From Mariniphaga anaerophila (GTDB lineage Bacteria; Bacteroidota; Bacteroidia; Bacteroidales; Prolixibacteraceae): a stretch of DNA of 64,000 nt. The translations under genes were made by a program, and so were the position numbers. Under the pieces are notes generated by a model, which was not told where the DNA came from, did no database searches, and saw nothing but the letters and a program-made list of their open reading frames with translations. The DNA lies in contig NZ_FQUM01000015.1 in NCBI RefSeq assembly GCF_900129025.1, positions 1-64,000 of the forward strand, read 5' to 3'. Below, piece after piece: positions 5,542-37,581 of the stretch. How positions within the stretch are numbered: position 1 is the stretch's first letter; the number at the start of each line of letters is the position of its first letter.

Positions 5542-6564
5542 TTAATCTGTTGTTTCCGGTACTGGTTGTTCCGGCGCCGGATAATTTCTTCGGTTAATAA
5601 ACGGCAAAATAAGCACCGAAATTATTCCGATAACAATAATCATTACAGTCATTGATGTGTGCGCCACAAACGCAAAAATTACTCCGTTTGTTTTGGCAAC
5701 TCCATAAAGTGCAAGTGCCTCGGTTGCCATAAAATGCCAGGCTCCCATTCCTCCCTGCACAGGAGCAACCATTCCAAAACTGGCCAGCACAAAAGTGGTC
5801 AGCCCTGCAATTGGTCCTAAATGACTGGTAAACCCAAAGGAGAAGAACACAACGTACAGCATCAGGTAGTATAACACCCAAATGGCAACCGAATGAAAAA
5901 AGAACCATCCTTTTTTCTTTATGCCTCGTACAGATATAAAACCTTCTTTCAGGTTATTAAAAATGGTAAATATTTTTTTGTAGAAAATAGTGTGTTGCAA
6001 TGTTTTTCTGAAAATAAAGGCAAGAACTACCAGAGCTACTAATCCTCCGATTAAAATTGGAGAGGTGATCAATCCCATAATTTTTGTTTCTATCTCGGGA
6101 TTATCGTTTATAAAACGAATCATCTGTCCTGCCTGCGAAAATATCACAATAGTCAGCAGCACGAGCAACGACAACATGTCTACGGCACGCTCGGCAACCA
6201 CGGTTCCAATTAATTTTGTAAACGAAACTTTTTCGTAACGGGCAAGCACTCCACATCTCGACAGTTCGCCCATCCGGGGAAAAACCATGTTCATGAGATA
6301 ACCAACCATAACTGCCAGAAAAGTGTTGATGAAATTTGGTTTGTGGCCGATTGGCTCAACCATCAATCTCCAGCGAATTGTCCGGCTGATATGGCTCAGT
6401 AACCCGATGAAAAGAGAAATGATTATCCAAAAATAATTCACATCATTTTTTAGTACCGATTTGATGTGTTCGATGTCCTGATCTTTATATATAAGCCAGA
6501 AAATGGATACGCCAATGGCAAAAAATGTGAGAAATTTGATGGTCTTTATTGCTATCTTTTTCAA
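5542..6564 (-). CDS. UPF0104 / lysylphosphatidylglycerol-synthase-type membrane protein
   Basis: A 340-residue polytopic membrane protein of the flippase-like LPG_synthase_TM family (PF03706). About eight hydrophobic segments are visible. Conserved-looking features are RTIRWRLM near residue 65, MNMVFPRMGELSR (about 95-108) and the AERAVDM loop. The C-terminal aminoacyltransferase domain of MprF is absent, so only the membrane part is present; a role in lipid or glycan movement is inferred. The start is a judgement: an upstream ATG at 6672 gives a 36-residue unconserved-looking extension, while a TTG at 6564 begins the expected LKKIAIKTIKFL. The promoter region of the divergent ksgA lies beyond it. 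Confidence 0.72.
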   Translation of the reverse strand: MKKIAIKTIKFLTFFAIGVSIFWLIYKDQDIEHIKSVLKNDVNYFWIIISLFIGLLSHISRTIRWRLMVEPIGHKPNFINTFLAVMVGYLMNMVFPRMGELSRCGVLARYEKVSFTKLIGTVVAERAVDMLSLLVLLTIVIFSQAGQMIRFINDNPEIETKIMGLITSPILIGGLVALVVLAFIFRKTLQHTIFYKKIFTIFNNLKEGFISVRGIKKKGWFFFHSVAIWVLYYLMLYVVFFSFGFTSHLGPIAGLTTFVLASFGMVAPVQGGMGAWHFMATEALALYGVAKTNGVIFAFVAHTSMTVMIIVIGIISVLILPFINRRNYPAPEQPVPETTD

Positions 6565-6748: not shown

Positions 6749-7504
6749 ATGAGTGTTGTCAGGCCCAAAAAAAAGTTAGGTCAGCATTTTTTGAAGGATC
6801 AGAATATTGCCTTCAAAATTGTTGATAGCCTGGGAGTCGCTGCTGCCAACGTGTTGGAAGTGGGGCCCGGAATGGGCGTGCTTACCCGTTATTTGTTGCA
6901 GCGCCCCGAACTTAGTGTTCACGTAGTTGAAATTGACCCCGAATCGGTAGAATACCTCAAAACTCACTTCCCCGGGTTAGAACCCCGAATTTATTCACTC
7001 GATTTTTTAAAGTGGGATGCCGCGCAGTTGCCACAACATTTCAGCGTTATCGGAAATTTCCCTTACAATATTTCTTCACAAATATTTTTCCGGATTATTG
7101 AATGGCGTAACCGGGTGCCCGAAGTTGTTTGCATGGTGCAGAAAGAAGTAGCAGAGCGCCTCAGTTCCCCTCCCGGAAATAAAACTTACGGAATTTTAAG
7201 TGTGTTACTTGGCGCATTTTACGATACCGAATATTTATTTACTGTTTCTGAGCAGGTTTTCATCCCTCCTCCTAAGGTGAAATCAGCCGTTATCAGGCTT
7301 CGTCGGAACTCAACAGAAGAGCTGCCTTGCAACGAGGAATTGTTCTTCAAAATTGTGAAAGCAGCTTTCAATAAACGACGAAAGATGCTCCGGAATTCCC
7401 TAAGTGAGCAGGGATTGGAATTACCGGAGCAATTTGCCACAAAACGGCCAGAGCAACTTTCTGTTGCCGATTTTATCCGGCTGACCAAGATGGTTGAAAC
7501 CTGA
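6749..7504 (+). CDS. ksgA: 16S rRNA (adenine1518/1519-N6)-dimethyltransferase
   Basis: A 251-residue KsgA/RsmA. It starts with RPKKKLGQHFLKDQNIA, the usual N-terminus, followed by the SAM-binding VGPGMGVLT (about residue 37) and the catalytic motif IV as NFPYNISS (about 107; the usual form is NLPYNISS). The C-terminal small helical domain ends with FIRLTKM. The enzyme dimethylates two adjacent adenosines in helix 45 of 16S rRNA late in 30S assembly; loss gives kasugamycin resistance in E. coli. The ATG at 6749 gives the conserved N-terminus. It is followed 13 bases later by mgtE on the same strand, a probable operon. Confidence 0.95.
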   Translation: MSVVRPKKKLGQHFLKDQNIAFKIVDSLGVAAANVLEVGPGMGVLTRYLLQRPELSVHVVEIDPESVEYLKTHFPGLEPRIYSLDFLKWDAAQLPQHFSVIGNFPYNISSQIFFRIIEWRNRVPEVVCMVQKEVAERLSSPPGNKTYGILSVLLGAFYDTEYLFTVSEQVFIPPPKVKSAVIRLRRNSTEELPCNEELFFKIVKAAFNKRRKMLRNSLSEQGLELPEQFATKRPEQLSVADFIRLTKMVET

Positions 7505-7517
7505 AAAAACTCAGAAA

Positions 7518-8876
7518 ATGGAATTTGAAATTACCAGAGAATATATAGACAGGCTGAAAGAACTTATTGAAGAAAACAATTCAGAAGAACTGAAAGCCAC
7601 CATGGAGCCGCTTCACCCGGCAGATATTGCCGAAGTGATGGACGACCTGAATATGGACGAAGCCAAATACCTCTACCTGTTGCTGGATGGGGAAAAAGCT
7701 TCTGACGTATTAATTGAAATTCCGGAACACGATCGGAAACGCTTCCTGAAAGTACTGCCACCCGAATTAATTGCCAGCAAGTTTATTGAGTACATGGACT
7801 CTGACGATGCTGCTGATATTGTGGCCGACCTCGACGAAGATTTGAAACAAGAGGTACTGAAAGAAATTGAGGACACCGAACAGGCCGGCGACATTGTGGA
7901 TCTGCTGGAATACGAAGAAGACTCTGCCGGTGGAATAATGGCAAAGGAGCTGGTTTCGGTGAACGAAAACTGGACTGTGGCAACCTGCCTGAAGGAGATC
8001 AGCAAGCAGGCTGAAGAGGTGGACGAGATTTATTACATCTATGTTACTGATGACCAACAGCGGCTGAAAGGAGTACTGTCTCTTAAAAAGCTGATTCTGA
8101 ATCCGACAAATACCAGAATTCCAAATTTGTACGATGCCGACGTAAAGAGCGTGCGAACAAGTGCACGTCAGGAAGAAGTGGCGGAAATAATGGACAAATA
8201 CGACCTGGTGGCTATTCCGGTAGTTGATGATATTGGCAGGCTGAAAGGGCGTATTACTTTTGACGACGTTATTGATTTTGTTCGTGAAGAAGCTGAACGT
8301 GACTACCAGATGGTTTCCGGTATTACCGGTGACGTGGAGCCGGACGATAAACCCTGGGAGTTAATCAGGGCAAGGTTTCCGTGGTTGCTGATAGGATTAA
8401 TAGGCGGAATAATGGGCGCATTGGTATTGGGAAATTACGAATCAGAAATTAGTCGCGTCACCGAGCTTGCTTTTTTTATTCCTCTCATTGCGGCAATGGC
8501 CGGAAATGTGGGGGTGCAATCCTCTTCAATTGTTGTGCAAAGTATTGCCAGCGGTGTAAGAGATGTAAGCACAACCGGCAAGCGGTTACTCAAAGAGCTG
8601 TTGGTGTCATTTGTTACCGCGGCAATTTTTGCCGTTCTCATTTTTCTGTACAACTATTTTGTGCAGGGAGATATTAATTTAACGCTGTCTGTTTCCATTT
8701 CGTTATTTATTGTGATGCTTTATGCTTCGTTTTTTGGTACTCTTATCCCGTTGGTTTTAAACAAGTTTAAGGTTGATCCGGCATTGGCTACCGGCCCGTT
8801 TATTACAACAATGAATGATATTTTGGGACTGTTTATCTATTTCGGCGTAGGAAAAATGTTTTTCGATTTTTTGTAA
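7518..8876 (+). CDS. mgtE: Magnesium transporter MgtE
   Basis: A 452-residue MgtE. It has an N-terminal superhelical MgtE_N domain (about 1-130, with HPADIAEVMDDL and DSDDAADIVADL), a CBS pair (about 131-255, starting SAGGIMAKELVSV) and five C-terminal membrane segments (about 275-450) that contain the pore residues, including the GNVGVQSS stretch. In characterised MgtE dimers the cytosolic N and CBS domains bind Mg2+ and close the channel when magnesium is plentiful. An in-frame TTG at 7494 would extend the protein by eight residues; ATG at 7518 is preferred because it starts the acidic helix directly. It lies between ksgA and the RimB-like gene with 10-13-base gaps. Confidence 0.93.
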   Translation: MEFEITREYIDRLKELIEENNSEELKATMEPLHPADIAEVMDDLNMDEAKYLYLLLDGEKASDVLIEIPEHDRKRFLKVLPPELIASKFIEYMDSDDAADIVADLDEDLKQEVLKEIEDTEQAGDIVDLLEYEEDSAGGIMAKELVSVNENWTVATCLKEISKQAEEVDEIYYIYVTDDQQRLKGVLSLKKLILNPTNTRIPNLYDADVKSVRTSARQEEVAEIMDKYDLVAIPVVDDIGRLKGRITFDDVIDFVREEAERDYQMVSGITGDVEPDDKPWELIRARFPWLLIGLIGGIMGALVLGNYESEISRVTELAFFIPLIAAMAGNVGVQSSSIVVQSIASGVRDVSTTGKRLLKELLVSFVTAAIFAVLIFLYNYFVQGDINLTLSVSISLFIVMLYASFFGTLIPLVLNKFKVDPALATGPFITTMNDILGLFIYFGVGKMFFDFL

Positions 8877-11204: not shown

Positions 11205-11996
11205 TTATTCCTGAATGTTAATTACAGAGATGATTGGCAAATGATCTGAATAATTTACGTGGTACACTTTCTTGTCAATCACGTCAATCCGTTCTGATTT
11301 TCCTACCAGTATGTAATCGATTTTTTTGATGGGATTTACAGTCGGAAATGTGTGAGAATCATCTGGCTGAGTGTTCTGGAAGTTTTCCAGCAGTATTGAG
11401 ATTTCTTTTGTGCCGGGCTCAGCATTCATGTCTCCCGTTAAAATGCATGGCATGTCTGAGCTTTTATAGATTTCGTTGATCAATTCAGCCTGCCGTATTC
11501 TGGAGTCTGAATTGCGATAATCCAGATGTGCTACTCCAACCATCCATTTGTTTTTTGTCGGAAGGGTAATTTGAGCCGTCAGAAATGCTCTGGTTTCATT
11601 AATCGAATCAGGGAAAATGGGTAGCCGATGATTTTTTACTTCAGTAATTGGGTATTTCGAAAGTAACGCTTGCCCGTACGAACCGCCCTGAAAAGCAAAA
11701 TGACGAACAAAAGCGTAATTCATCCCGGTGTATTTTGCCAGTACTTTAGCCTGGTCGACCTGACCCGACCGATAACAAACGCTGTCCACTTCCTGCAACC
11801 CGACAATATCTGCCCCGGTTTCTTTGATGAACGCTGCAATCTTCATCAACTGGTCTTCGTTATTTGCATCTTTCCCCGTGTGAATATTGTACGACATCAC
11901 TTTTAGTTTATGAGTGCTGGTAGGTTTGCACGAAGCTGCAAATAAAACCATTAGCAGCATTGTGCCGTACAGGCATATCTTTTTAGTGCTCAACAT
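11205..11996 (-). CDS. Endonuclease/exonuclease/phosphatase-family lipoprotein
   Basis: A 263-residue member of the DNase I-like EEP superfamily. The active-site set is visible: MSYNIHTG (Asn), GLQEVD (Glu), GDMNAEP (Asp/Asn) and the terminal SDHLPI (Asp-His). The N-terminus is a lipoprotein signal with lipobox FAASC (C23), so the enzyme is probably attached to a membrane outside the cytoplasm. Superfamily members cut nucleic acids, sphingomyelin or inositol phosphates, and the sequence alone does not choose; extracytoplasmic Bacteroidota members are often nucleases or phosphodiesterases. It is convergent with the AstE-like gene, separated by four bases. Confidence 0.8.
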   Translation of the reverse strand: MLSTKKICLYGTMLLMVLFAASCKPTSTHKLKVMSYNIHTGKDANNEDQLMKIAAFIKETGADIVGLQEVDSVCYRSGQVDQAKVLAKYTGMNYAFVRHFAFQGGSYGQALLSKYPITEVKNHRLPIFPDSINETRAFLTAQITLPTKNKWMVGVAHLDYRNSDSRIRQAELINEIYKSSDMPCILTGDMNAEPGTKEISILLENFQNTQPDDSHTFPTVNPIKKIDYILVGKSERIDVIDKKVYHVNYSDHLPIISVINIQE

Positions 11997-27674: not shown

Positions 27675-28619
27675 TTATCCCATTAGCGGAATTCCTTCGG
27701 GGCGCTGGTGTTTCCAGCGGCGGTGCGACCAAAGGTAATACTCCGGTTCCTGACGTATTATTTCTTCCATTTTTCGGATGTAAGCCAACAAAATTTCATG
27801 GGATTCCACCTCTTGTGGGTTTTCTATAAGCGGGAAATATTTTGCCACGTATTTTCCCCGGCCTGTTTTTACTACGTGCTGAAAAAAGACAGCCTGATTT
27901 GTTTTTGCTGCAATTTTTTCGGGCCCGGAGAAAAAGGGCGCTTCGCGGTTTAAAAAGAGTGCCCAGAATTTTGAGGATGCAGCAGGTGTCTGGTCAGCTC
28001 CCAGCCAAAGAATGGTTGGTATTTTTGCATGGTGAAATTCAAGTGCTTTACGTGCTGACTGGTACACCGGGATGCATTGGCCGCCCCACCGTTGCCGCGC
28101 ATGGAGCAGAAACTTTTCCATCGCATGGTTGCCGCGCACGGGGTTGTATATCATTAGTACGAGGTGTTTGATGTGAGCCTGAATGAAACTGCACCATTCC
28201 CAGTTGTTGTGGTGCATGGCCAAAACAATAAAACTTTTTCCCTGGCGGTAATATTCCTCCATAATGTCCAGCCCTTCAAATGTAATGTGCTTGTTCAGCT
28301 TTTCCGGAGAAATACTGTTTAACTTAACGGATTCTACCATTAAATCGGTAAAATGTCGGTAAAAACGGGCGGCAATTTGTTTCCGTTCTTTGGCTGTTTT
28401 TTCAGGGAAGGCATATTTCAGATTTTCCATAACTACTTTTTCGCGGTAATGAAAAACATGTTTTGTTAAAAAGCAGGTTATATCCGAAATTACAAACAGC
28501 ACCCGGAAAGGGAGCAGCGAAATGAGCCGTAGAATGCCGGCCAGAATGTTGTTAACTGTTTTTTTTAAGGGGCTTTCGTGGAATCTTTTATCTCTTCTCT
28601 CAAGGTTGTTCTTCTTCAT
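27675..28619 (-). CDS. LpxL/HtrB-type lysophospholipid acyltransferase (copy 1)
   Basis: A 314-residue member of the Lip_A_acyltrans family. The catalytic H-x4-E motif is in AMHHNNWEW (about 138-146), with an N-terminal hydrophobic segment for inner-membrane attachment (about 28-50) and the typical YLWSHRRWKHQRP ending. Relatives transfer secondary acyl chains to lipid A; in Bacteroidota other lipid acceptors are possible. It is 24 bases downstream of a second family member (28644-29537), so the two form a tandem pair, and it is closely followed by the ATP-grasp-like unknown. Confidence 0.85.
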   Translation of the reverse strand: MKKNNLERRDKRFHESPLKKTVNNILAGILRLISLLPFRVLFVISDITCFLTKHVFHYREKVVMENLKYAFPEKTAKERKQIAARFYRHFTDLMVESVKLNSISPEKLNKHITFEGLDIMEEYYRQGKSFIVLAMHHNNWEWCSFIQAHIKHLVLMIYNPVRGNHAMEKFLLHARQRWGGQCIPVYQSARKALEFHHAKIPTILWLGADQTPAASSKFWALFLNREAPFFSGPEKIAAKTNQAVFFQHVVKTGRGKYVAKYFPLIENPQEVESHEILLAYIRKMEEIIRQEPEYYLWSHRRWKHQRPEGIPLMG

Positions 28620-28643: not shown

Positions 28644-29537
28644 TTAAACTTGTAGTGGCACTTCTGCCGGGCGTTTGTTTTTCCAGCGTTTGTGCGACCA
28701 AAGGTAGTATTCAGGTTTGTCGTTTATGATTTTTTCCATTTTGCGGATGTATGCGTTCATTATTTCAAACTCGCTGTGTTCCTGCGGATTTTCAAACAAC
28801 ACCTCGAATGTTGTTTCGTAGAATCCTCTTTTCACTTTAACCGTGTTTTGAAAAATTACGGGATAATTAAATCGTCGCGAGATGGCAGCCGGGCCGGGAT
28901 AAAATACGGTTTCCTGATTCAGAAACATTGTCCAGAATTTATAGAACGCCGGGGGAGTCTGGTCACCAGCCAGCCAGATAAACACCGGCTCATGGCTTTT
29001 TTCGGCTCTGATTATGCGCCGTAATATTGAAGAGTCGGAAGTCATTTCAGCGCCGAAACGCGCGCGGTTATCATTGATGTACTTGTTGAACTGAAGATTG
29101 TGAAGCGGTTTGTAAACGCCAAGTACATTGTGTTTTATAAATAGCGGAAATGCACCGCCCCATTCCCAGTTGTTTTGATGCATTGTAAGAACAACAACGC
29201 TTTTCCCCTGCTCAAAATAGTTGTTAATAAGCTCCGGGTTTTTTACAGCCATTCTTTTTTTTATGTTCTTCTTTTTAATGCTCCCCAGTTTAATCGCTTC
29301 CATAATCAGGTCGCAGAGATGCCGGTAAAACCGCTTTCTTATTTTTCTTAGCTCGGACTCACTCTTTTCGGGGAACGAGTTGCGGAGATTCATGTAAACA
29401 ACATCTTTACGGTAACCCATTATATGGAAAACAACAACATAAAGAATGTCCGATAAAATGTATATGATCCAAAAGGGAAACAGTGCAACCATCTTCAGTG
29501 AAAAAATGCCTATGTGTGTTGAATTCCCTTTGCTCAT
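28644..29537 (-). CDS. LpxL/HtrB-type lysophospholipid acyltransferase (copy 2)
   Basis: A 297-residue paralog of the next downstream gene. The H-x4-E motif is in TMHQNNWEW (about 118-126); the hydrophobic N-terminus (MVALFPFWIIYILSDILYVVVF) and the YLWSHKRWKNKRP ending match copy 1. The two copies share order and motifs but have diverged clearly, so they probably add different chains or act at different positions of the same lipid. It is the first gene of the minus-strand run 29537-26431. A weak TAGCTTTA element lies just upstream. Confidence 0.85.
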   Translation of the reverse strand: MSKGNSTHIGIFSLKMVALFPFWIIYILSDILYVVVFHIMGYRKDVVYMNLRNSFPEKSESELRKIRKRFYRHLCDLIMEAIKLGSIKKKNIKKRMAVKNPELINNYFEQGKSVVVLTMHQNNWEWGGAFPLFIKHNVLGVYKPLHNLQFNKYINDNRARFGAEMTSDSSILRRIIRAEKSHEPVFIWLAGDQTPPAFYKFWTMFLNQETVFYPGPAAISRRFNYPVIFQNTVKVKRGFYETTFEVLFENPQEHSEFEIMNAYIRKMEKIINDKPEYYLWSHKRWKNKRPAEVPLQV

Positions 29538-30524: not shown

Positions 30525-32309
30525 TTATTTGGTTAGTCTTTCCAGTCTTTTCATAATAGAAAATATGAAAGCTGCAGAAGCAAGGCAACAAACCACGAAA
30601 ATGGCCCACAGTTGCCAGAGTTCCAGTCTGTCCCAGAAATAACTTCCAATTCCGAGCAGCTTATTTCCAACTGCGGTAGCGAGCAACCAGCCTCCCTGCA
30701 TCAGACCCTGGAAGCGTGCCGGCGACACTTTCGATACAAAAGAAAGTCCCATCGGGCTTAAGAATAGTTCAGCAATGGTAAGTACCATGTAACTGCTCAT
30801 CAGCCAGTACGGCGATACACGTGAAGTGTCGGGAACTGCTTCTCCCTGCAGTTGAACCGGAGAAATCACGTCCAGTGAAGCCACCAGCATAATCAGAAAC
30901 CCGAAGGAAGCGATAATCATACCGATACCGATTTTTTTCGGAGTGGAAGGCTCTTTCCCCCGGTTGGCAAGCCAGGTGAAAATCCCCATCACCAAAAAGG
31001 TGAGAGAAACAATAAACAGCGGGTTAAACGATTGGAAAATTTCAGGGGCAATTGCATTGTCTGCTTCGCCACGACTGAAAAAGTAGTAGGTGAGAAATCC
31101 CAGTCCTACGAATAACGCGCCGCCCAATATGCGAACATTCTTTTCCAGCTTTTTCCGAAGTAAAAGCACGAGACCCACAACAGTTCCGATAAATGCAAGA
31201 ATATAATCAAGCCTGAAGAAAAGGAAGGTGAAAGGGCCTACGGTTTTTGTCGTATAGTCGCGGGCAAACATTGTTTGCGTAAGCCCGTTTTGATGGAACG
31301 ACATCCAGAAAAAGATTACCACAAGGAAAACCAGCAAAAGAGCGGTAACTCTCGGGCGTTCTTCTTTTGTGGATGACTGCAGCATCCAGGCAACAAAACC
31401 TGCAAAAAGTCCGAACGCAAAACCAATGTCTGAGTTGCCAAATACAAAATAGATAACAAGGGCAACCACCGCCATTACACCCAGCGAAATACCGATTTTT
31501 GAAAAGCTCTTTTCTACTTTCACTTCGTTGGTAGAAGCGGTTACTTCTTTCGTTGGCAGTAGTTTACTAAAGAAAATGTAAACCAGTAACGAAATCAGCA
31601 TGGCACCGGCAGCAACGGCAAATGCATAATTGTATCCTTTAGAGAATACGGCAATGTATTCGTGTGCAAATTCTGTTATGTCGGTTACCGGACCATTCAA
31701 ACTGACTTTATTTGCCAGTTCGGTGATCTGGGCAGAATGCTCCATGTTTCCGTCAATTATTTGGTGGCACAATGCAGGTAAACTGCCGTCGTGCACAAAA
31801 CCGTTGGTTTTTAACCACCAGTTGCGTACTGCCGTGGCAGCAAACGGTGCGAAAAATGCGCCGACATTTATACCCATGTAAAAAATGAGGAAAGCTTTGT
31901 CCCGAAGTTTTTCATATTTCGGGTTATCGTACATCTGACCAACAACTGCCTGCAAATTTCCTTTAAAAAGTCCGTTACCAAGAGCAATGGTGAAAAGGAA
32001 AACAACTGTCATGGAAAGTGGCATTCCGGGGATTGCCATTAAAACATATCCGGCAAACATAATTATGATGCCGCTGAGAATTACTGACTTGTACTTTTTT
32101 GTGGCATCTGCAATTATTCCACCGAGCAGTGCGAGAGCGTAAATGGCAAAATAAAACCAACTGTATATACTTCCTGCGGTTTCTGCATTAACACCGTATT
32201 TTGCCTGTAAAAAAAGCACAAGGATAGCCATCATGGTATAGAACCCAAAACGTTCGCCCATGTTAGCGAAAAAGGCGACTATCAAGCCTTTAGGATGATT
32301 TTTGAACAT
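30525..32309 (-). CDS. POT/PTR-family peptide MFS transporter
   Basis: A 594-residue protein of the proton-coupled oligopeptide transporter family with about 14 hydrophobic segments. The N-terminal family motif ExxERFxYY reads NMGERFGFY, lacking the first glutamate (Asn instead). Other family parts are present: GGIIADATKKYKSVI, LGNGLFKGNLQAVVGQMY, DKAFLIFYMGINVGAF and, near the end, ELFLSPMGLSFVSKVSP. Members import di- and tripeptides with protons; the missing glutamate means coupling may differ. A long extracytoplasmic insert lies at about 175-225. It has a -7 element (TATATTTG) upstream. Confidence 0.85.
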   Translation of the reverse strand: MFKNHPKGLIVAFFANMGERFGFYTMMAILVLFLQAKYGVNAETAGSIYSWFYFAIYALALLGGIIADATKKYKSVILSGIIIMFAGYVLMAIPGMPLSMTVVFLFTIALGNGLFKGNLQAVVGQMYDNPKYEKLRDKAFLIFYMGINVGAFFAPFAATAVRNWWLKTNGFVHDGSLPALCHQIIDGNMEHSAQITELANKVSLNGPVTDITEFAHEYIAVFSKGYNYAFAVAAGAMLISLLVYIFFSKLLPTKEVTASTNEVKVEKSFSKIGISLGVMAVVALVIYFVFGNSDIGFAFGLFAGFVAWMLQSSTKEERPRVTALLLVFLVVIFFWMSFHQNGLTQTMFARDYTTKTVGPFTFLFFRLDYILAFIGTVVGLVLLLRKKLEKNVRILGGALFVGLGFLTYYFFSRGEADNAIAPEIFQSFNPLFIVSLTFLVMGIFTWLANRGKEPSTPKKIGIGMIIASFGFLIMLVASLDVISPVQLQGEAVPDTSRVSPYWLMSSYMVLTIAELFLSPMGLSFVSKVSPARFQGLMQGGWLLATAVGNKLLGIGSYFWDRLELWQLWAIFVVCCLASAAFIFSIMKRLERLTK

Positions 32310-32516: not shown

Positions 32517-34058
32517 ATGTCAAAAGAAGTGCTTCCCAAAGAGTTAATGAATTCTGTATTGGGCAAGTTGTACGACGTACTTGCCAATGGCGACGGCGAT
32601 GTAGTTCCGCCGTCGGATGACAACTATTTAGCATGGCTTTCGGTGGGCGTCCCGTATCCTGCCGAAGAGCTGGATTTCCTTTCCGAAGGGTTGACCGGTG
32701 TTATTAAGAAAAGTGAAAACTCCGGAACAAAAAATGAGGAAAAAGATGAAGAAAAGGACGAAGAAGAGAAAAGCATTGAGGAAATTAACCAGCTGCTTGC
32801 GCAGGATACCGCCAGGAAATATCAACAGGCTGAAAATTTTGCCCGTATTGTTGATATGATTCCGGATACTTCGGGGGTAAAAGGCGATGTAACAATGAAT
32901 GTCTGGAATCCTGAGAATACCCTTTCTCAGGCCTACGAACACATTCTGAAATTCAGTCAGGTTGCCAACCTGGAGCCGGACGAAAAACTGAAAGCGAAAA
33001 TTGAAAAGCTGCGAGGCCTTTTGCAGGAGAAAAAAATTAAAAAGGATATTATTACCGATGAGGAAACCGAGGTGATTGAAGAGAGCCAGCTGGTTATTAA
33101 ATACACCGAGAAAATGCAGGATTTTCTTACTGCTGCCCTCGAATATAACACCCATCGTGTAAATGCGCTCACAGCCAAAGATCCGGGAGCTATCCATTTT
33201 TGGGCACTGAACGCTCCCATTCTCCGGAACAAAGTTTTGGCAGCTAAAAGAGACTGGGTAAATAATGGCTACAAAGAAGAGTATGAGAAAATTTCTGCTT
33301 TTATTTCGCAGGTAGAAGGGCGGAGTATGTTGGCGTTAAAAGAACGGTACCTCGATGATTTGGAAAAAACAAAGCTCACCGGAATTGCTTCCGGCGCCGA
33401 TTTCTTTTACTCGAGCCTTGTTCCCGGCAATTTTGCAAAGTCGGATAGCGGTTGGACACAGTTCACGTTTTCGAGCAGCGATTACAGTTCCAACTACAGC
33501 TTTTCTAAAAAGAAAGGATCGGGAGGTGGCGGACTGTCCTTCGGGTTATTCCGAGTAGGAGGCCGTGGCAGTTATGAGAAAAATGAATCCAGCAGTAAAA
33601 TGGATGCCAGCTCATTTTATCTCAAGTTCAAAATTGCGCAGGTTCCCATTGTCAGGCCCTGGTTTAACGTAAACTTTCTTACCAGTAAATACTGGCGGTT
33701 CGACAAAGCGAATCCCGAGTTCAAAGATCAGATGGTTTCAGATGGCGATTTGCCGCCAAACGGAATGATTCCGGCGTACACAACCACTGCTATTTTTGTA
33801 AAAGACCTGGTGCTGTATTTTGGCGAAAGACATTCTGAAATGCAATCAGAAATGACAAAAGCAGGCGGCGGAGGTTTTGTTGGCTGGGGACCGTTCCATC
33901 TTGGAGGAAGTTACAGTTCAACTAGCGGTTCGCGCGATTTTCAGCGTAACTCCGATTCTCAGGGTATTCGAATTGACGGAATGCAGCTTATCGGTTTTAA
34001 ATGTCATATGTTGCCAAAGTCTCCCGACCCTAATCCGGGAGTAGAAGAGTGGGTGTAA
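32517..34058 (+). CDS. Unknown protein A of a paralogous pair (Gly-rich beta module)
   Basis: A 513-residue protein I do not recognise; no signal peptide or membrane helix is seen. Parts in order: N-terminal LSVGVPYPAEELDFL (41-55); a strongly acidic, lysine-rich linker (about 63-89); a helical region to about 285 with W247 and the K253-E-E-Y-E block; a beta-rich part with YSSLVPGNF (298-306) and W313; a glycine-rich hairpin (334-352); IVRPWF (378-383) with S390-K-Y-W393; IFVKD (426-430); a second glycine-rich stretch (450-465); and a QLIGFKCHMLP tail (490-500) followed by a proline-rich end. The same landmarks recur in the next gene. The two lie 15 bases apart and probably form an operon. 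Function unknown. Confidence 0.75.
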   Translation: MSKEVLPKELMNSVLGKLYDVLANGDGDVVPPSDDNYLAWLSVGVPYPAEELDFLSEGLTGVIKKSENSGTKNEEKDEEKDEEEKSIEEINQLLAQDTARKYQQAENFARIVDMIPDTSGVKGDVTMNVWNPENTLSQAYEHILKFSQVANLEPDEKLKAKIEKLRGLLQEKKIKKDIITDEETEVIEESQLVIKYTEKMQDFLTAALEYNTHRVNALTAKDPGAIHFWALNAPILRNKVLAAKRDWVNNGYKEEYEKISAFISQVEGRSMLALKERYLDDLEKTKLTGIASGADFFYSSLVPGNFAKSDSGWTQFTFSSSDYSSNYSFSKKKGSGGGGLSFGLFRVGGRGSYEKNESSSKMDASSFYLKFKIAQVPIVRPWFNVNFLTSKYWRFDKANPEFKDQMVSDGDLPPNGMIPAYTTTAIFVKDLVLYFGERHSEMQSEMTKAGGGGFVGWGPFHLGGSYSSTSGSRDFQRNSDSQGIRIDGMQLIGFKCHMLPKSPDPNPGVEEWV

Positions 34059-34073
34059 TTTAAATCTGAAATA

Positions 34074-35849
34074 ATGTCTCAACTCGCTACAATTTTTGCG
34101 CGAATTAAATCGTATTTTGAGCAAAACATAATCAGCGAGGGAAGGGAGGAAGATTACAAATTCTTCTTCCCCCTTTTTTCGTTGGGTTATACAAACGAAG
34201 ATTTTTTGTTCCTCAATACCGAAATGGCAAGTGAGGATGCCCGTAAATACTACGACGAACTTTATGATTTTTCGCTGATGGCAAATAATATTCCGCGGCA
34301 GGATATTATTTGGCAATTGAGTGGCGAAAATCGTGATTTCCTGCACAAGGTTTACGAGGAAATACTTGCCAATCTGAAGTTGATTGATGCAGAAACTATC
34401 TCGGTTCCAAAACTTGTTGGAACGGCCATTTTTGAGCGTGCTCTTAATGCATTGCCCAAGGAAGAAACAGAAGAGTACCGTACTTTTTATGCATTGCACA
34501 AAAAGTTGAATTCAGAAATTCTGGAACTGCTGAAAAAAGGGGTGGAAACAGGCGACGCCTCGGTTACATTAGAAGTTGAAATGAAGCAAAATATGAAGGT
34601 TCAACTTCTGGAGCAGTGGAAAAATAGCGCACGAAAAGATGAGGTGGAACAAAAAATAGAGCAGCTTTTGAAAACTGAGGCCGATCGTTTTATTAAAAAA
34701 CTGAATGAGGTAAAAGGAAAACTGACTACTGCCATCAGAGAGCATGTAAATGGCTCGTTTTGCCTGACTACCTGCTATCCCAACAATCTTTATAATTCGG
34801 ATAAACTGGCCTGGAAAAAGATCGAAATCGGGAAAGATGAAATTCAGAAATTGGTGGAGAACTCAAAAGAGGAGGGGTTTTATGAAATTTTTGAACTGAG
34901 CGGACTCCAGGATTTGGAAGTGGAGAAAATAAGCTTCGACCTGATTTTTATAAACATAATGCGGGAGTGGTTTGATGAACAACTGCTTTTGTCTCCGTTT
35001 TGGGACATCGATTTGCTGGATAAAGAGAAAATTGAAATTCCCTTTTTTGCTACGCAGCTTGTTTTTGTGCGGAACATCGAAATTAAGTTGAGAGAAAATT
35101 CGGCACAAAATAATCTGATTCTTCAGAAAATGGATGTAAAGAAAAGCATCGGTCCGTTTTTGTTGAACAAGAAGCTTTTTACGGCAAACACTATTCAGTT
35201 GAAATCGGTAAATAAAACCATGCAATTGGAGCGAAATGCAATAATTAAAGCGAAACCGAAAGTTGCTGCGGTAAAAACTGACGCAAGAGTTTTGAATGCG
35301 GTGAATTTACGAAAAACGCGAAGCCTGGTGCTCAATGCAAACCCAAAAGTGCTGGTGCGAAATAATCCGGCAAAAACCGTTGTTGCCAAACCGCAAACCG
35401 CCAGTTTTCTTGTGGCAAAGCCTGTTGTTGCCAGGGCAATTCTGCTTCAGAACCTTGTTAGTTTAACCTTGTATTTCAGGCACAAAGAAACCAGACAGTT
35501 GATAGAAGTTGAACCCGGTGAACTGGAGGTTTTCAGAAACAACAAAAAAGAAAATGTTTCGGTAAAAAAGAATGATAACAAAACGCTGACTATTGTGCTT
35601 TCTGCAAATCAGGAGTATAACATAAAACTGGTAGCAAAGGGGTTGGAGCCTGCCGAACTTAAGATTGTGTTCAATCCTCAGGAGCAAAAAGCAAAGCGAG
35701 CCCGCAGGTTTGCGTACACAATGCCCAAACAGTCGCAGGAGGGATTGCTGAATGCAGCCGCCAGCAACGAGTTTCAGTTGGTTGCTGTGGTTTGTAAGCG
35801 GATTCCTGCAGGATATCCGGCTCCGGTTCCGTACGCAGATTATTTTTAG
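34074..35849 (+). CDS. Unknown protein B of a paralogous pair (with beta-sandwich insert)
   Basis: A 591-residue cytoplasmic-looking protein of unknown function. It shares landmarks with the gene before it: FSLGYTNEDFLFL (35-47), W182 with K188-D-E-V-E, LTTCYPNNL (231-239), W247, IMREWF (295-300) with S307-P-F-W310, FVRN (331-334) and the tail QLVAVVCKRIP (568-578) with alternating prolines. Between the shared module and the tail it has an insert: a basic, valine- and alanine-rich linker (about 385-455) with repeated xPKVxV units, then a beta-sandwich-like domain (about 458-535) resembling PEGA/CarboxypepD_reg folds (KLVAKGLEPAELKIVF). A two-way terminator follows, so the pair is a closed unit. 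Confidence 0.75.
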   Translation: MSQLATIFARIKSYFEQNIISEGREEDYKFFFPLFSLGYTNEDFLFLNTEMASEDARKYYDELYDFSLMANNIPRQDIIWQLSGENRDFLHKVYEEILANLKLIDAETISVPKLVGTAIFERALNALPKEETEEYRTFYALHKKLNSEILELLKKGVETGDASVTLEVEMKQNMKVQLLEQWKNSARKDEVEQKIEQLLKTEADRFIKKLNEVKGKLTTAIREHVNGSFCLTTCYPNNLYNSDKLAWKKIEIGKDEIQKLVENSKEEGFYEIFELSGLQDLEVEKISFDLIFINIMREWFDEQLLLSPFWDIDLLDKEKIEIPFFATQLVFVRNIEIKLRENSAQNNLILQKMDVKKSIGPFLLNKKLFTANTIQLKSVNKTMQLERNAIIKAKPKVAAVKTDARVLNAVNLRKTRSLVLNANPKVLVRNNPAKTVVAKPQTASFLVAKPVVARAILLQNLVSLTLYFRHKETRQLIEVEPGELEVFRNNKKENVSVKKNDNKTLTIVLSANQEYNIKLVAKGLEPAELKIVFNPQEQKAKRARRFAYTMPKQSQEGLLNAAASNEFQLVAVVCKRIPAGYPAPVPYADYF

Positions 35850-35861
35850 CAACTCACGTAA

Positions 35862-35905
35862 AACACAAAAAAAGGGGAACGGCAGCTTCCCTTTTTTTGT
35901 GTTTT
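35862..35905. terminator. Terminator after the paired unknown genes
   Basis: ACACAAAAAAAGGG...CCCTTTTTTTGTGT forms a long stem around a short GC-containing loop (35862-35905). The A-run on one side and T-run on the other allow use from either strand; it closes the two-gene unit 32517-35849. Confidence 0.88.
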
Positions 35906-36072: not shown

Positions 36073-37581
36073 ATGAAACTTTTTTCAACAAAACAGATAG
36101 CAGGGATTGATAGTTTTACCATCGAACACGAACCCGTTTCCGATATTGATTTAATGGAACGGGCGGCTCTGCAAATTACAAACTGGTTGGTTCAGCATTT
36201 TTCTACAGAACAGAAAATGGTGTTTTTTGCAGGCCCCGGAAACAATGGGGGCGATGCGCTGGCTATTGCCAGGCAGCTTGCCGGGCTCGATTACCAATGT
36301 GAAGTTTGCCTGCTCGATTTTCGGAAGGAACTGAAAGGTTCGCCCGCAACTAACTGGAAACGGCTGCAAGAGCAGGGAAAGGTGGCATTGTCTAAAATAA
36401 AGGATGTGGATGGCTTTCCGAAAGTAGCGGCAAACGACGTTTTGCTCGACGGGTTGTTCGGCTCGGGGTTGTCCCGCCCGCTGGAAGGATTCCCTGCCGA
36501 AATTGTGCATAAAATGAATGCCCTGCCAAACACAACCGTTGCCATTGATATTCCCAGCGGATTAATGGGAGAAAACAATTCAGAAAACATTTTGGAGAAT
36601 ATTGTACGGGCCGATTTTACCCTTACTTTTCAATTCCCGAAAATTAGTTTTCTGTTTGCCGAAAACGAATTGTTTACAGGTAACTGGCAGGTGTTGCCAA
36701 TCGGGCTGCATCCCGGAGGAATTGCAAAAACTCCTTCTGATTTCTTTTTTGTGGAGAAGGAAGATGTAAAGGAAATGATTCCCCGACGGACAAAATTTTC
36801 CCACAAAGGAACTTTTGGGCATGCGCTGCTGGTTGCCGGAAGCTACGGAAAAATGGGCGCTTCGGTGCTGGCATCAAAAGCTTGTCTGCGCTCGGGCGTG
36901 GGGTTGCTTACTTCGCATGTTCCGCGACTTGGCTATTCCATTATTCAAACTGCAGTGCCGGAAGCGATGGTTAGCATTGACGAGCATGACTCGATTTTTA
37001 CGGGGATTCCTGACCTCACTCCGTTTAATGCAGTGGGTGTTGGTCCTGGAATTGGCCGGAAAAAGAATACCTGCAAAGCACTGTGCGATCTTATAAAACA
37101 GTTTCGGTCGCCAATGGTGCTGGATGCCGATGCTTTAAATATTCTTTCCGAAAATAAGGAGCTGCTCCGGGAATTGCCGGAAAATTCTATTCTTACTCCC
37201 CATCCCGGAGAGTTTGAACGCCTGGCCGGAGAAACTGCCGATTCGTGGGAGCGGATTCAGGTGCAACGGCAGATGGCAAAAGAGTTTCGTGTGATTGTTG
37301 TTTTAAAAGGTGCTTTTACTTCGGTCGCTTTGCCTGACGGGAGGTTGTTTTTTAACGCTACAGGAAATCCGGGGATGGCCACTGCCGGAAGCGGTGATTC
37401 ACTTACGGGAATAATTCTGGGATTGCTGGCGCAGCGGGTTTGTCCTGAATATGCTGCCATTGCAGGCGTTTTTTTGCATGGCCTTGCGGGCGACATTGCT
37501 GCCGGCAGGATTTCGGAAAATGCATTAATTGCGGGCGACATTACCAATTGTCTGGGAAAAGCTTTTCTTGAATTGAAATAG
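36073..37581 (+). CDS. nnr: Bifunctional NAD(P)HX epimerase / ADP-dependent NAD(P)HX dehydratase
   Basis: A 502-residue two-domain repair enzyme. The N-terminal YjeF_N epimerase domain (about 1-215) shows DLMERAALQI, GPGNNGGDALAIARQL (about 54-69) and DIPSGL. The C-terminal carbohydrate-kinase-fold dehydratase domain (about 225-500) shows HKGTFGHALLVAGSYGKMGA, LDADALN, LTPHPGEF and the catalytic NPGMATAGSGDSLTGII. Together they turn damaged hydrated NADH/NADPH back into the normal cofactors using ADP. The length and fusion order match E. coli NnrD (YjeF). It is monocistronic as far as visible. Confidence 0.95.
   Translation: MKLFSTKQIAGIDSFTIEHEPVSDIDLMERAALQITNWLVQHFSTEQKMVFFAGPGNNGGDALAIARQLAGLDYQCEVCLLDFRKELKGSPATNWKRLQEQGKVALSKIKDVDGFPKVAANDVLLDGLFGSGLSRPLEGFPAEIVHKMNALPNTTVAIDIPSGLMGENNSENILENIVRADFTLTFQFPKISFLFAENELFTGNWQVLPIGLHPGGIAKTPSDFFFVEKEDVKEMIPRRTKFSHKGTFGHALLVAGSYGKMGASVLASKACLRSGVGLLTSHVPRLGYSIIQTAVPEAMVSIDEHDSIFTGIPDLTPFNAVGVGPGIGRKKNTCKALCDLIKQFRSPMVLDADALNILSENKELLRELPENSILTPHPGEFERLAGETADSWERIQVQRQMAKEFRVIVVLKGAFTSVALPDGRLFFNATGNPGMATAGSGDSLTGIILGLLAQRVCPEYAAIAGVFLHGLAGDIAAGRISENALIAGDITNCLGKAFLELK

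Follow-up and report, generated by a model that had tools for sequence, protein, structure and literature searches.

We analysed a 64,000-nucleotide stretch of Mariniphaga anaerophila DNA (contig NZ_FQUM01000015.1, positions 1 to 64,000 of the forward strand; hereafter the window), in which two neighbouring genes, A and B, form a compact unit. On the evidence of their sequences, A and B are diverged, full-length tandem paralogs, and they may encode the two components of a β-pore-former, in which A would carry the membrane-inserting parts and B would be a partner that lacks them. The features of the locus are the following:

32517 to 34058, + strand: gene A, 513 amino acids, with an N-terminal part, a helical region and a C-terminal β core carrying two Gly/Ser-rich inserts; candidate pore-forming subunit (from the open reading frame, its homologs and an AlphaFold model with a predicted local distance difference test score, pLDDT, of 66 and a predicted template modelling score, pTM, of 0.70)
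32904 to 33371, + strand: A residues 130–285, mostly helical in the secondary structure of the model
33474 to 33614, + strand: insert 1, A residues 320–366, candidate membrane β-hairpin 1 with its turn at G343-L344 (from alternation and near-fixed length)
33822 to 33962, + strand: insert 2, A residues 436–482, candidate membrane β-hairpin 2 with its turn at G458-P459 (from alternation and near-fixed length)
34059 to 34073, + strand: gap of 15 bases between A and B
34074 to 35849, + strand: gene B, 591 amino acids, a diverged A paralog with neither insert, in which a linker and a β-rich domain precede the last shared strand (AlphaFold model, pLDDT 64, pTM 0.54)
34833 to 34919, + strand: B residues 254–282, the counterpart of insert 1, short, charged and helical in the model (best nine-residue alternation 0.42)
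35091 to 35189, + strand: B residues 340–372, a remnant of insert 2 that keeps IGPF and has lost the return arm (best nine-residue alternation 0.51)
35211 to 35762, + strand: B residues 380–563, a low-confidence linker and β-rich domain (448–532) before the last shared strand, QLVAVVCKRIP
35868 to 35898, + strand: terminator-like hairpin of 12 pairs followed by a T run, ending the A-B unit (pattern scan)

The original prediction, made from the sequence by eye, gave the coordinates of both reading frames and the 15-base gap correctly. It also described a closed two-gene unit with a terminator; the two-gene unit is conserved in other genomes and the terminator-like hairpin lies at 35868–35898, in a region where 7 such patterns were found against 4.4 expected (standard deviation 2.5).

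Comparison of the two proteins by BLASTP gave E = 2 x 10−6 (36.6 bits) over A residues 247–463, while the best of 1000 block-shuffled versions of B reached 31.2 bits and reversed B 18.5. Profile comparison with hhalign, using alignments of 16 rows, returned a probability of 100 and E = 3.4 x 10−41 over 403 columns (A columns 6–475), against 0.34 for the reversed control. When each side was restricted to the rows of the window and its sister species, the alignment covered 160 columns of the C-terminal half with E = 4.3 x 10−5 (reversed 0.48). The N-terminal halves align only with the wider profiles, and the significance of the BLASTP and two-species comparisons resides in the C-terminal half only. 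The original prediction had called A and B full-length paralogs and had proposed a profile alignment as a check; the alignment proved significant, with the N-terminal half recovered by profiles only. The chain of landmarks on which that prediction was based was also recovered, comprising LSVG..EELDFL in A and FSLG..EDFLFL in B near the N-terminus, W247 and W182, P303 and P236, R-x-W-F at 380 and 297 with a Ser at +8 and a Trp at +11 from its Trp in both proteins, FVKD and FVRN, and finally QLIGFKC and QLVAVVC with the spacings described. Moreover, a profile built from A sequences only and run against the whole genome of M. anaerophila matched A and B alone, the latter at 7.7 x 10−7.

The order of the two genes is invariable. 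In all 53 loci with both genes (a count that includes one genome twice, L018 being the same as L032) A precedes B in the same orientation, and fewer than 300 bases separate them except in L103 (403), L036 (565) and L035 (1431). In L036, a flavobacterial genome, a small heat-shock-like open reading frame, named by eye, occupies 11288–11725 between A and B. A-like genes unaccompanied by a B were seen at five loci (L013, L021, L084, L085 and L011, the last on a contig of only 3356 bases). The search for genomes holding both genes, a further check proposed at the outset, found the homologs of A and B together at 53 loci against five A-like loci without B.

Homologs of A are patchily distributed. 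They were found in 2 of the 40 relatives searched and in 8 of the 395 genomes of Bacteroidota (M. anaerophila itself included in both counts; a profile search gives the same 8), at 15 loci in GTDB contigs and on two alphaproteobacterial plasmids. Matches to the A profile occurred in five of 398 Pseudomonadota genomes, three of them being DUF2589 proteins and one the centre genome itself. Searched by its own sequence, B was present in 2 of the 40 relatives and absent from plasmids, the plasmid set being the only one of the mobile-element sets searched with it. A had no match in the phage or viral collections, and a phage or viral origin of A was rejected on that count. Within Chryseobacterium, the genus of G436, A is present in 36 of 148 genomes, 35 of which have B after A, while the 36th has a single protein of 1076 amino acids instead of the pair. 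In this protein, encoded at 5613–8840 of L084, the A-like C-terminal domain is preceded by a long additional N-terminal portion.

The closest relative detected lies on contig JAHYIT010000016.1 of Mariniphaga sp. KA03, with 92% identity in A against 67% in B. The pair occurs in 2 of the 4 Mariniphaga genomes examined. In one of the genomes without it (G002), the transporter and epimerase genes that border the pair in the window flank a site holding only a response-regulator open reading frame, and the pair therefore seems to be gained or lost as a whole; in the other (G003), different genes precede the epimerase gene.

The feature that sets A apart is its pair of inserts. In the AlphaFold model of A (16 rows, pLDDT 66.3, pTM 0.70) the strands of the C-terminal core span residues 314–319, 367–379, 420–435 and 483–498, and the inserts, of about 47 residues each, fall between strands 1 and 2 and between strands 3 and 4. 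Their lengths are nearly fixed: W313 and R380 lie 67 apart in 49 of the 57 A sequences and in 12 of 20 diverse ones (a subset with one row for Chryseobacterium and relatives), and G458 and Q490 lie 32 apart in 54 of the 57 and 17 of the 20, while the distance from R380 to G458 varies from 66 to 88. Alternation of residues was measured in 17 of the diverse rows, leaving out L011, L021 and L084. Hydrophobic residues alternate along A residues 334–344 and 345–353, around G343-L344, and along 449–457 and 460–467, around G458-P459, the opposite face of these arms being mostly Ser, Thr, Gly, Asn or charged. Of the roughly 505 windows of A, the four arms take ranks 5, 8, 5 and 10, and the 15 best nine-residue windows all lie within the arms or the neighbouring strands 2 and 3. 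As alternation, near-fixed lengths and central turns coincide, the inserts resemble paired membrane β-hairpins with strands of about 9–11 residues. The model draws strands at 454–457 and 460–468 in insert 2; in insert 1 the pLDDT is 26–48, so no hairpin is displayed there by the model itself. Self-comparison of A revealed no internal repeat linking the two inserts. Only 2 of the 57 A rows and 3 of the 53 B rows contain a stretch of 19 residues with a mean hydrophobicity of at least 1.6, the level of a membrane helix, a scarcity that β-pore-formers also show.

B has neither insert, but the last strand, the R-x-W motif and the helical region are retained. The shorter counterpart of insert 1 leaves a distance of 50 between W247 and R297 of B. 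The β-rich domain at 448–532 is possibly Ig-like, an impression drawn from the strand pattern, with no significant match. Gly plus Ser make up a larger fraction of the 70 residues preceding R-x-W in A than in B in 13 of 14 pairs, the exception being L031 (0.17 in A against 0.21 in B). Insert loss takes different forms in different groups when read by eye, with a short return arm in L032 and L033 and a long Gly/Pro/Cys-rich stretch in L031. The B of L029 is a protein of 279 amino acids with a lipoprotein-like start.

In a tree of 34 rows neither the A nor the B copies are monophyletic, and at least 3 changes of label are forced. A second tree, from which seven long or doubtful rows were left out (both of L034 and both of L029, L021, L011 and L085), gave the same result, and the approximately unbiased (AU) test rejected a single B clade with p = 0.00217. 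As the B-type copies do not form one clade, hairpin-less partners probably arose on more than one occasion, and the pattern suggests that such a partner has been favoured repeatedly. These trees are subject to caveats, since the changes may include reversals and the rows show long branches, uneven composition and possible gene conversion. The recurrent origin of B could be an artefact: a single ancient duplication, after which gene conversion or the effects of long branches drew some A-B pairs together. We consider this doubtful, yet a serious possibility: the long branches, the odd composition of several B rows and the weak basal support favour it, and part of the forced label changes could be reversals, whereas the AU test still argues against one B clade (p = 0.002) after removal of the seven rows, A and B of Rhizobium group as sisters with 100/98 support, and the inserts were lost differently in different groups.

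Genes for peptidoglycan hydrolases recur beside the pair. In the Chryseobacterium loci (L025–L027 and L086–L117) a PG_binding plus Muramidase (PF11860)-like gene begins 4–287 bases after B in 35 of 35 cases, these matches being by likeness to the PG_binding plus Muramidase protein of L025. Among the other A-B loci, the queries used detected a wall-hydrolase gene beside the pair in 5 of 17: a muramidase gene in L016 and L028; PG_binding with CHAP in L024 and L019, the CHAP score of L024 being under the Pfam cut-off; and, in a betaproteobacterium (L034, 8394–9656), hemopexin repeats with an Amidase_2 match, also under the Pfam cut-off, just upstream of the A-B pair. In L023 the sequence ends inside B. 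A scan of six of the neighbouring wall hydrolases revealed no signal-peptide-like core. This linkage suggests that a pore could give a cytosolic hydrolase access to the wall.

Two of these loci, L016 and L028, of the Flavobacterium type, also contain genes for a caspase-like protein (Peptidase_C14, 4 x 10−31) and a trypsin-like protein (Trypsin_2, 9 x 10−5, below the cut-off) upstream of the pair and in the same direction. Between the trypsin-like protease gene and A, directly before A, lies a free protein of 117 amino acids related to part of the helical region of A (L016 7862–8212 and L028 9553–9903; A4 profile E = 1 x 10−13 and 5 x 10−13). This stand-alone copy could be an inhibitor or a third component.

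Searches of Pfam, NCBIfam, PHROGs, PADLOC and PDB sequences gave chance-level matches only for A and B, in agreement with the initial remark that no named family was known for either, which holds for these libraries. Of the titles and abstracts that literature searches listed, none mentions the A-B pair by name. PF01823 (MACPF) matched neither protein, nor anything else in the genome of M. anaerophila, and the MACPF signature pattern used was uninformative, as it is present in 0 of 9 MACPF proteins too. PF01289, a profile by which CDC-like toxins would be recognised, is absent from the Pfam matches of both proteins up to E = 10, and the Pfam gasdermin profile matched neither at the same limit, which is a weak test for divergent bacterial members. 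PF11655 (DUF2589) likewise had no match in A or B and was not found in the genome. The three matches of the A profile to DUF2589 members in the 398 proteobacterial genomes had E values of 4 x 10−5 to 6 x 10−4, and hhalign gave E = 0.005 with a score of 29.2; 30 block shuffles reached at most 18.1, but the reversed profile scored 32.0. As the reversed control beats the score, this likeness was provisionally treated as an effect of composition and does not show kinship with DUF2589. Foldseek matches of B to major histocompatibility complex class I structures in the PDB (14 at E < 0.001, best 4 x 10−4) were also rejected, because the template modelling scores of the top rows were about 0.1–0.2 and their root mean square deviations exceeded 20 Å.

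Three elements go beyond the original prediction: the absence from B of A's amphipathic inserts, the probable repeated origin of B, and the frequent presence of an adjacent peptidoglycan hydrolase gene. We propose, tentatively and as a reading about as apt to fail as to hold, that A-B is a two-component β-pore-former, acting like complement or like the cholesterol-dependent cytolysin-like (CDCL) pairs, that opens a membrane for a wall hydrolase; by the tests run, it does not appear to be a member of either the CDCL or the complement family. A would be the inserting subunit, whose inserts of about 47 residues would refold into two amphipathic membrane β-hairpins. B would be a non-inserting partner that has kept the core and the helical region, lost the hairpins and gained the β-rich domain, and it may nucleate, cap or restrain A in an A-B hetero-oligomer, a plausible arrangement that the original prediction had already suggested. 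A peptidoglycan hydrolase of the muramidase, CHAP or amidase type, devoid of an obvious export signal, would then reach the wall via the breached membrane. The target may be the own cell, in a programmed lysis, or another bacterium; the former fits because signal peptides are absent, the latter because the spread is patchy and homologs of A occur on plasmids. A bolder version, which we regard as improbable, would make A-B a new superfamily of two-hairpin β-pore-formers that together with a cytosolic hydrolase forms a self-lysis cassette, a pore plus an endolysin, gated by the partner or by proteolysis, with the hairpin-less partner evolved repeatedly. In some Flavobacterium this cassette would include the caspase-like and trypsin-like proteases.

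Several results weigh against a pore. Foldseek searches with the A model returned nothing at E < 0.001 in the PDB or viral (BFVD) sets and no significant pore-former in the top rows. The hhalign comparison of A with 9 MACPF sequences was not significant (E = 0.02, reversed 0.097); these came from 9 of 10 loci, L147 having been dropped because none of its frames passed the overlap limit. The A model is mediocre, with a pLDDT of 66 overall and below 50 in insert 1, and the 57 A rows are mostly close relatives. Taken singly, the arms gave permutation p values of 0.004, 0.016, 0.016 and 0.06, and they were picked post hoc. Moreover, alternation is a property of amphipathic strands in general: the arms are outscored by strand 2 of A, and soluble β strands of A and B alternate equally strongly, up to 0.90 in the β-rich domain of B. 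The scan detected no signal peptide in A or B of the window. Finally, the window, its sister species and L022 are among the 12 of 17 loci outside Chryseobacterium at which the queries used found no adjacent wall hydrolase.

The proposed pore can be compared with several known systems. In the MACPF/CDC plan, two inserts lie between strands 1 and 2 and strands 3 and 4 of a β core. The order of strands and inserts in A fits this two-insert core, with the reservation of a model pLDDT of 66 and no significant Foldseek match. The MACPF proteins of the complement membrane attack complex would share with A the two inserts in a β core, and they share with A-B the unequal paralogous subunits; unlike them, A has no Pfam, significant profile or significant Foldseek match.

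Comparable in organization are the CDCL-long and CDCL-short proteins of Bacteroidota, including Chryseobacterium, which are encoded by adjacent paralogous genes, often of unequal size, have in each subunit a β core with two membrane hairpins, to which A can be likened, and, when similar in size, are most related to their own partner, as in some A-B pairs (PMC7527733, PMC11169675 and PMC11952106). In CDCL pairs the long subunit binds the membrane and then attracts many copies of the short one, much as complement does (PMC11169675). In contrast to CDCLs, none of the 57 A rows and none of the 53 B rows contains the YGR of the F/Y-F/Y-Xn-YGR motif (PMC7527733), B lacks both hairpins, and wall hydrolases are linked to A-B. 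A signal peptidase II (SpII) signal was the criterion that selected the paired CDCL set in PMC11169675, whereas a lipobox scan of the first 40 residues was positive in 0 of 57 A and 1 of 53 B rows (L029).

Both MACPF/CDC proteins and gasdermins place two hairpins per protomer on a twisted β sheet, and those of bacterial gasdermins are loops in the soluble form (PMC11952106), as the inserts of A would be. Protease genes beside two A-B loci add to the gasdermin likeness; unlike gasdermins, A and B have no Pfam match, and the caspase- and trypsin-like genes occur at two loci only. The nearly unstudied DUF2589 (PF11655) proteins resemble A in one Ser/Gly-rich amphipathic stretch, with a GWGPF-like turn in some, and resemble A-B in having tandem copies beside wall-hydrolase genes; unlike A-B, they have no helical region of this kind. 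Two DUF2589 genes stand in tandem beside a GH19-type hydrolase gene in L118 (6254–8471), and two others beside Amidase_3 and Tle1-like lipase genes in L120 (6843–11314). Phage holin-endolysin cassettes consist of a small helical membrane protein, the holin, next to an endolysin. A-B loci would be comparable in that a membrane-opening protein adjoins a wall hydrolase without an obvious export signal. Unlike holins, A and B have 513 and 591 amino acids and no strong membrane helix, and A has no phage or viral relative.

A-B could instead be a secreted or injected antibacterial toxin pair, in which the pore pair and the hydrolase, as payload, would enter a neighbour's envelope, whether released by cell lysis, delivered with a contractile device or exported along a non-classical route, and B would serve as adaptor or self-protection. 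We consider this unlikely, although several observations speak for it: homologs are patchily distributed (2 of the 40 relatives and 8 of the 395 genomes of the phylum, M. anaerophila included in both), the pair has been gained or lost at a site that one congener leaves empty, two Alphaproteobacteria carry homologs on plasmids, the B of L029 is of the lipoprotein type, the A of L085 has a start that looks signal-peptide-like by eye and falls below the scan threshold, and antibacterial CDCL pairs are already known in Bacteroidota (PMC11169675). It is opposed by the scan for an N-terminal signal core, positive in 0 of 57 A rows, by visual inspection of loci, which showed no adjacent delivery apparatus, and by the lack of a separate immunity gene seen in the window.

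A-B might also be no pore at all and instead form a structural or scaffold complex of the envelope, with the Gly/Ser-rich inserts as flexible glue or lattice contacts. This would agree with the low-confidence inserts, the absence of a fold match or of a sequence link to known pore families, and the weak resemblance to uncharacterised DUF2589 proteins; the near-constant insert lengths, alternating faces and central turn, the loss of the inserts from the partner in several ways and the repeated linkage to wall hydrolases argue otherwise, and we find it rather improbable. Equally hard to sustain is the view of B as an inhibitor or antitoxin-like brake, a degenerate copy capping A until a signal or protease removes it: the inserts are just what B lost, and protease genes (Trypsin_2 below cut-off) with a free 117-amino-acid helical copy lie upstream in the same direction in L016 and L028, but in the window B exceeds A in size and carries a domain peculiar to it, its sequence has diverged further from the sister-species counterpart than that of A (67% against 92% identity), and five A-like loci show no B.

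If the two-component pore is real, A-B would represent an unrecognised family of membrane pores, thinly spread over Bacteroidota and Proteobacteria. It would also provide a natural experiment with more than one independent origin of a partner devoid of membrane-inserting parts, and would make testable why complement or CDCL pairs use a non-identical partner. Moreover, the steady hydrolase link in one genus, recurring elsewhere with other kinds of hydrolase, would connect the formation of pores with the cutting of walls in systems other than phages.

The neighbours of the pair in the window were named by eye. Upstream of A, a POT-type transporter open reading frame runs on the opposite strand (30525–32309), and downstream of B lies an NAD(P)HX epimerase/dehydratase-like one (36073–37581). 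In KA03 (L015) a response regulator (7099–7602; Pfam 1.6 x 10−20) with a hydrophobic C-terminal tail is located between B and the epimerase gene; the window leaves no room for it, while G002, without A-B, has one. Two adjacent lipid-A-acyltransferase-like open reading frames on the − strand (27675–28619 and 28644–29537) are apparent tandem paralogs, an ordinary local duplication close to A-B.

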